DNA of 64,000 bases from positions 1 through 64,000 of the forward strand of contig VXMM01000009.1 in NCBI GenBank assembly GCA_009841105.1, written 5' to 3'. The first letter of the stretch is position 1; every line of letters starts with the position of its first letter. The notes below the pieces were generated by a model, which was not told the origin of the DNA, ran no database searches, and saw only the letters and a program-made list of their open reading frames with translations. Below, piece by piece: positions 3,182 through 4,383 of this stretch. A program made the translations under genes and the position numbers. The DNA is from Acidimicrobiia bacterium. Its GTDB lineage: Bacteria > Actinomycetota > Acidimicrobiia > Spongiisociales > Spongiisociaceae.

Positions 3182-3291
3182 CGCCGGGAGTCTATCGCGC
3201 CGCCGTGGAGAGCTCTGACCGGGATCCGCCCACCGGTCACTGTGGCCGGTGGCAAGTATCATGAGGCGGGTCCCGACAACGGGGAGCATCA

Positions 3292-4383
3292 GTGACAGCA
3301 TCCGAGCGTTCAGCGTCCCTCCGGCGGCTGCGACCCGCCCTGGTGGGGCTGGTTGCGCTCGCGCTGGTGGTCGCCGCGACCGCTCCGGCGCCTGCCGCCG
3401 GAGGCTTCCCCGACGTGGACGAGGGCGACTGGCACGAACCTGCCATCAACGCCCTCGCGGAGATGGGCCTGTTCGAGGACACCCTCTGCGAGGACGGCTT
3501 CTGTCCCGACGACCCGGTGGAGCGGTGGGTGATGGCGGTCTGGCTGGTCCGGGCTCTCGGCGGCGAGGTCACCACCACCGGAACCTCCCGGTTCGAGGAC
3601 GTAGACGCCGCCGAGTGGTGGTCGCCCTACGCGGAGGAACTCGCCGCCCGGGAGATAACCAGGGGATGCGCTACCGGTCCGCTCCGCTACTGCCCGGACG
3701 ATACCGTCGACCGGGCCCAAATGGCCTCCTTCCTGGTCCGCGCCTTCGATCTCGAACCCGCCGAGTCGTCGGCCGGGTTCACCGACGTGGACGTGGGCAG
3801 CACGCACGGAGCCGACATCGACGCCCTGTTCGCGGCCGGCGTCACCGCCGGCTGCGCGGACGATCCGCTCCGCTACTGCCCCGGCCAGTCCGTCAAGCGG
3901 GGCGAGATGGCCACCTTCCTGCACCGGGCATTGCTGAAACAGCAAGAGGAGGCCGGGATCAGCGACGATGTCCCAGATGTCAACCTGACCGACGTTTCCA
4001 CCGGCGACACCGTGAACCTCCGGTCGCTGTTCACCGGTGACAAGGCGGTCATGTTCTGGTTCTGGGCCGAGTGGTGACCCACTTGTCAGGGGCACGCCCC
4101 GGAGGTCGAGCGGTTCGCTCGAGAGAATGCTGACAAGGTCACCGTGGTGGGTATCAACCCGCGAGCATTCAACGGTCGTCTGTCCTCGGCCGAGAGGTTC
4201 GTGAGAACGTACGGGCTCACGTTCACCAACCTCTTGGACGGCTCAGATGCCGCGTGGCAACACTACGGCAGCCCTTACACGTCCAGGGCGCTCTTGGTGG
4301 ACAGGCACGGCAACCGGGTGGAGCAGGCTCCCAGCCTCTTCTCTACCAGTAGGTTCCAGAGCCTGGTAGACGGCCTCGACTAG
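3292..4383 (+). CDS. Exported S-layer-like-repeat protein with C-terminal selenothioredoxin domain (UxxC), TGA at 4075-4077 read as Sec
   Basis: 363 residues if TGA codon 262 is decoded as Sec. The GTG start is preceded by GGGGAG. Residues 1-37 are a signal peptide (RRLRP, hydrophobic run, APAPAA). Three S-layer-homology-like repeats follow at about 39-90, 100-152 and 162-214, each with F-x-D-V and a C-P-x-x-x-V/M-A-x-F/W-L motif. Residues about 230-363 form a TlpA/ResA-type thioredoxin domain. Its active site reads F-W-A-E-W-[TGA]-P-T-C where the family has W-C-P-x-C, so TGA replaces the attacking Cys and Cys265 remains as resolving Cys. The domain continues normally (VTVVGINP, SRALLVDRHG) to a TAG at 4381. 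Inference: a surface-attached selenoenzyme acting on disulfides or peroxides outside the membrane. A pseudogene is the alternative. Confidence 0.83.
4106..4122 (+). promoter_or_regulatory. Putative SECIS element of the selenothioredoxin
   Basis: TCGAGCG and CGCTCGA form a perfect 7-bp stem around the loop GTT. The loop starts 35 bases after the TGA and its first base is G, inside the usual bacterial SECIS window. A second hairpin (GGGG-CACG-CCCC, 4089-4100) lies closer to the TGA but lacks a G in the first two loop bases, so I favour the distal one. Confidence 0.55.

Follow-up and report, generated by a model that had tools for sequence, protein, structure and literature searches.

Selenocysteine (Sec) has been reported before in bacterial proteins of the thioredoxin fold. 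Redoxin, Prx-like and TlpA-like families with a UxxC or UGC motif are covered in several publications (PMC13188914, PMC9312934, PMC2398784), where redoxin-family and Prx-like thiol:disulfide oxidoreductases (PF08534/PF00578, UxxC; 'Redoxin family protein' and 'Prx-like 3' of the marine surveys) appear as predicted bacterial selenoproteins, described there without an SLH (S-layer homology) anchor. The NCBIfam family NF041054 (WAxxUGC_long, UGC-containing TlpA) likewise has Sec as the attacking residue of a ResA/TlpA-like domain. The closest solved relatives of the protein described below are Mycobacterium tuberculosis DsbE (MPT53, 1lu4) and DsbF (3ios), and Bacillus ResA, which are exported thiol-disulfide oxidoreductases that have Cys in place of Sec and do not carry SLH repeats. 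On the outside of the Gram-positive cell, TlpA-like thioredoxins are represented by the pneumococcal surface lipoproteins Etrx1 and Etrx2 (4hqs, 2yp6).

We analysed a window of 64,000 nucleotides, the whole stretch of DNA considered here, from an Acidimicrobiia bacterium, and followed up a gene in which SLH repeats are joined to a thioredoxin domain with an in-frame TGA codon, referred to as SLH-selenothioredoxin. Its product is very probably an exported and SLH-anchored selenoprotein, made with the help of a SECIS hairpin, with a TlpA/DsbE-like domain that descends from a lipoprotein family and would most likely take part in thiol-disulfide exchange at the cell surface. The protein belongs to the same fold family as the Sec redoxins and has the same U-x-x-C, but its motif is UPTC instead of the UGC of NF041054, for which it scored 18 bits against a cut-off of 300 bits, and the NCBIfam search gave no family above cut-off. 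Etrx1 and Etrx2, in turn, are Cys enzymes with a lipid anchor, whereas SLH-selenothioredoxin has Sec and an SLH anchor. In the open-access literature, we found no paper describing an SLH-Sec fusion, and searches for selenoproteins together with Acidimicrobiia, sponge symbionts or SLH returned nothing relevant. Thus, Sec-containing redoxin/TlpA-like UxxC proteins are already known, and the form fused to SLH repeats is a variant of which this literature gave no example. The sequence-only reading of this locus could name no other exported protein that joins surface repeats to a Sec-thioredoxin; the unusual element is the SLH anchor, since the thioredoxin part is a known kind of selenoprotein.

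Domain architecture and active site

The gene spans positions 3292-4383 on the forward strand (+), the strand of all its parts given below, and runs from a GTG start to a TAG stop. Direct reading of the sequence revealed a Shine-Dalgarno-like GGGGAG (3281-3286) 5 nt upstream of the GTG. Translation with TGA read as U gave 363 amino acids with a single in-frame TGA at residue 262, and relatives could be aligned from residue 1 to the end of the protein, for example locus L076 with 85% identity over 374 columns. A putative signal peptide (residues 1-36, ...LVGLVALALVVAATAPAPAA; 3292-3399), recognized by inspection and kept in the genus relatives, is followed by three SLH repeats (residues about 39-88, 100-151 and 163-214; 3406-3933). 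Pfam scored SLH (7.7e-10) over two stretches, and the third repeat, at residues 39-88, is evident by eye. A signal peptide and a set of three repeats, as expected of SLH-domain surface proteins, are therefore present, the former and the third repeat being assigned by inspection. Each repeat contains one Cys pair (C66/C71, C126/C134 and C188/C196), and these cysteines are mostly invariant in alignment A3. The predicted structure had low confidence across the SLH half. The translation and the Pfam matches bear out the frame proposed earlier, consisting of a signal peptide, three S-layer-like repeats, a TGA and a thioredoxin tail up to a TAG. Export of a Sec residue had also been put forward as a special feature; export is indeed predicted, but it is not special to this gene, as a lipobox marks many close homologues as Sec lipoproteins. 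Formate dehydrogenase-N of E. coli is also an exported selenoprotein. The neighbouring genes encode a glutamine amidotransferase and a short-chain dehydrogenase, and the gene neighbourhood in the window and in the relatives revealed no functional link. A haem peroxidase-family gene (Pfam PF00141, 2e-45) is located at 10-1725 of the window, ~1.6 kb upstream of the Sec gene.

The C-terminal part is a TlpA/DsbE-type thioredoxin (redoxin) domain (residues 225-363; 3964-4380). Pfam assigned Redoxin (6.2e-15) to residues 225-341, with additional matches to AhpC-TSA and Thioredoxin; phmmer against solved structures found M. tuberculosis DsbF (3ios, 6.6e-15) and MPT53 (1lu4), and 1lu4, 3ios and ResA were the closest folds in a Foldseek search with the predicted model, in which the pLDDT was about 84-93 across residues 231-290. 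The TGA (4075-4077) occupies the first Cys position of W-C-P-x-C, as had been noticed from the letters alone, which makes residue 262 the attacking residue of U-P-T-C. The resolving Cys265 (TGT, 4084-4086) is present, and invariant in alignments A1 and A3. The protein thus has the redoxin/thioredoxin domain with (U/C)xxC opening the first active-site helix that characterizes the TlpA/DsbE/ResA fold. Since a Sec nucleophile and a resolving Cys are found together in this fold, thiol-disulfide exchange is indicated, and the protein would likely function as a surface thiol-disulfide oxidoreductase.

It is conceivable, though rather unlikely, that the selenoprotein would work as a Sec-dependent surface peroxide reductase and not as a thiol-disulfide exchanger. 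Redoxin and AhpC-TSA outscored Thioredoxin in Pfam, peroxidatic sites favour Sec, and the haem peroxidase-family gene lies close by, but U-x-x-C is the motif of TlpA/ResA/DsbE, and the closest solved structures are DsbE, DsbF and ResA, not peroxiredoxins. A second alternative concerns the cis-Pro opposite the active site of thioredoxin folds, which is replaced by Ser331 at the aligned position. Other thioredoxin-fold proteins in which this cis-Pro is changed to Ser can bind metal or Fe-S through their active-site thiolates, and the SLH-fused form might by analogy be a metal-binding or electron-transfer protein. Ser is found at position 331 in the genus-level SLH form and in a lipoprotein encoded on contig 44 (C44), and Pro in the other, more distant lipoprotein homologues of A1. 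However, the SLH locus L080 has kept Pro at this position, and we consider the alternative improbable. Because of Ser331, we claim the fold and the relationship for SLH-selenothioredoxin and not standard thioredoxin catalysis, from which the activity of the SLH form may differ.

Decoding of the TGA codon

The genome (3.05 Mb, 97.5% complete) contains all components for Sec incorporation that the earlier reading had suggested looking for. A tRNA-Sec (selC) scored 77 bits with the tRNA-Sec model, and ARAGORN gave its anticodon as TCA; selB and selA are adjacent on contig 13 (C13), and selD, located on contig 50 (G000:C50:4322-5248, L070), is a selenoprotein gene too, with an in-frame TGA of its own in the active site GGGUASK. 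The absence of selB and selC, which had been named as evidence against a selenoprotein, can therefore be dismissed. In a search of 99 genomes of relatives, tRNA-Sec was detected in 78, among them all nine further members of the genus, which, judging from the style of the isolate names, we take to be probably sponge-associated. A thioredoxin-domain match was present in 95 of these 99 genomes, and the closest matches all had one TGA at the same codon.

We also scanned one genome per species for 84,980 species and kept the best 80 of 123 loci, which come from Acidimicrobiia and other actinobacterial and bacterial MAGs. The codon is TGA in 79 of these 80 loci, including all close relatives, and since the scan patterns did not contain the Sec codon, this count, taken over the best 80 of 123, does not favour TGA. 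The single exception (L081) has TGT, so that the only non-TGA homologue among them has the Cys that the earlier reading had suggested looking for at position 262. The gene accordingly combines a catalytic in-frame UGA with conservation of the coding sequence downstream of it and with a Cys homologue, as expected for a bacterial selenoprotein, and together with the Sec machinery and the SECIS-like hairpin described below, this supports the selenoprotein reading.

Annotation pipelines would end the gene at the TGA, which is also the commonest stop among the long ORFs of the window, and the sequence could then be explained by a true stop or a sequencing error, leaving a short SLH protein and a thioredoxin tail that is a pseudogene. 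This is very unlikely, since in dozens of loci the protein sequence of the tail is maintained 3' of the TGA, whose codon position never varies, and the genome has the full Sec machinery. We rejected both a pseudogene and a sequencing error, because independent assemblies (MAGs) share the TGA, which also disposes of the suspicion that resequencing would give TGC or TGT at 4075-4077. Some bacteria read through TGA as Trp, but readthrough as Trp or another standard residue, or a genome-wide reassignment, which we rejected, is less probable still, as TGA is the usual stop here (closing 27 of the window's 35 long ORFs) and thus not reassigned, the codon aligns with the catalytic Cys, the lone non-TGA homologue among the best 80 of 123 loci has Cys and not Trp, and the UCA-anticodon tRNA fits the tRNA-Sec model.

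The SECIS-like hairpin

A SECIS-like hairpin, UCGAGCG GUU CGCUCGA (TCGAGCG-GTT-CGCTCGA in the DNA), is located at 4106-4122 and is conserved as UYGAGC AGUUY GCUCRA. From the TGA, the spacer is 28 nt to the start of the 7-bp stem and 35 nt to that of the loop GUU, which has G first, so that the distance of 35 bases given for this hairpin in the sequence-only reading is correct for the loop but not for the stem. The part of PMC13188914 that sets out bSECIS constraints gives a loop of 3-9 nt, a stem of 4-16 bp, a UGA distance of 16-37 nt, a G within the first two loop positions and an MFE of at most -7.5 kcal/mol. With 7 bp, a GUU loop, a 35-nt spacer and -10.0 kcal/mol, the hairpin satisfies every constraint given there, which answers the earlier call for a SECIS prediction.

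The hairpin alone folded at -10.0 kcal/mol with a z of -2.66 against shuffled sequences, with relatedness ignored. Folding of the whole 60-nt region was no better than that of shuffled sequences (z 0.06), and because the z of the full fold is uninformative, we turned to covariation, to controls with slid pairing partners and to a null of synonymous recoding. When 85 Sec loci were aligned without gaps (A2), the equivalents of 4106-4122 were paired in 96.6% of cells, compared to 18-44% when the partners were slid. Coupled C-G to U-A changes occurred in nine distinct sequences of A2 (Fisher p = 2e-9, ignoring the relatedness of the sequences), and an A-U to G-C change in one. The C-G to U-A change couples a synonymous Val/Leu codon change with an Arg-to-Gln change. 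Codon choice in the stem is also narrow, with Ala encoded by GCT in 81 and Arg by CGA in 58 of the 85 loci, both minor codons elsewhere in these genes. When the stem codons were recoded synonymously, all six pairs were formed in 2.1% of cases, and among the best 80 of 123 loci 63 were fully paired, compared to a mean of 1.7 and a maximum of 8 in 2000 recoding runs. In L081, the homologue with Cys, the downstream hairpin has been lost. A search of the hairpin region against Rfam gave no match, only sub-threshold chance ones, and a covariance model of the region found three sites in the genome, all in TGA-containing thioredoxin-domain genes, namely the window gene, the lipoprotein paralogue on C44 and, with a weak match, another TlpA-like Sec gene on C23.

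The stretch from the TGA to the SECIS-like hairpin contains a spacer helix, hairpin 1 (GGGG CACG CCCC, 4089-4100). Its register shifts among relatives, only 64.7% of cells pair when it is held to a single register, and we therefore regard it as the less likely SECIS. In more distant paralogues (L060, L064, L067, L069 and the genome's own C23 gene), an apparent hairpin with an AGUUG loop is found at the position of hairpin 1. The C23 locus (G000:C23:61498-61710, L038) encodes a second TlpA-like lipoprotein with a TGA (WAEWUPACRRELP), and its different and earlier hairpin, CGACGGG AGUUG CCCGUCG, has an outline in common with the other four; possibly, this is a second SECIS geometry within the same lineage. 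Standard annotation would cut the genes of this Acidimicrobiia family, most of which encode lipoproteins, at the TGA, and the conserved SECIS signature GUCGAGCAGUUYGCUCGA could serve to find and re-annotate them.

Origin of the SLH form and possible function

SLH repeats were found in nine loci only (L072-L080). In most of the other loci, a lipobox precedes a low-complexity linker; a small number are cut or ambiguous in architecture. A tree of 89 domains placed the SLH forms, including that of the window, together on one side of a branch with support 96/74 (96% of bootstrap trees); on this comparison, the SLH form, found in one family only, has a single origin. In the more distant relatives L077-L079, the SLH gene directly follows a lipoprotein Sec paralogue, which suggests that a tandem arrangement was the source from which the SLH and lipoprotein forms diverged. 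The lipoprotein paralogue on C44 (G000:C44:4577-4975, L036) has the same Sec codon (F-U-E-T-C), the same SECIS hairpin and a long Thr-rich linker.

Sequence comparison establishes the presence and conservation of the Sec codon, the decoding machinery of the genome, the hairpin, the arrangement of the domains and the grouping of the fusions into one cluster. How SLH-selenothioredoxin is exported, whether it sits at the surface, what it acts on and in which redox direction are inferred from these. In the mechanism that we propose, the UGA at 4075-4077 would be decoded by SelB with Sec-tRNA(Sec), aided by the hairpin at 4106-4122, the product would be exported through its signal peptide, and the three SLH repeats would attach it to the cell wall or S-layer, where Sec262 would attack and Cys265 resolve. 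The protein would descend from thioredoxin lipoproteins with Sec that form a widespread family in Acidimicrobiia; in one family of these bacteria, the lipid anchor was presumably exchanged once for the SLH module common in this genome. Its most likely work would be cell-surface thiol-disulfide exchange, for which the Cys pairs of SLH proteins may be the substrate, or the repair of oxidized surface proteins. A CcdA/DsbD-type electron importer is present in the genome and VKOR, for which we also looked, was not found there, and for this reason the balance leans towards reduction or isomerization, although this is not proof.

Seven other SLH modules of the genome contain six Cys each, one pair per repeat, hence the enzyme would have disulfide-bearing proteins around it. 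In a tentative extension of this idea, which we think rather unlikely, a selenoenzyme anchored in the cell wall would service the disulfides of the bacterium's own SLH surface proteome, placed among its substrates by a captured module. With Sec in a redox protein that is predicted to be exported and anchored to the wall in an actinobacterial lineage, it becomes possible to test how Sec proteins are exported and stay reactive outside the cell, and what selenium adds to surface disulfide chemistry.

At least seven other proteins have the same SLH module (L029-L035; G000:C32, C2, C68, C6, C21, C57 and C62), some in frames far longer than the module, which points to an SLH-anchored exoproteome. 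On contig 45 (L156:2976-5451, G000:C45), a CcdA-like gene lies ~90 bp upstream of an SLH protein. The two were considered as one gene, but they are separate genes, and the SLH protein has, by eye, nuclease-like and Excalibur-like C-terminal parts.
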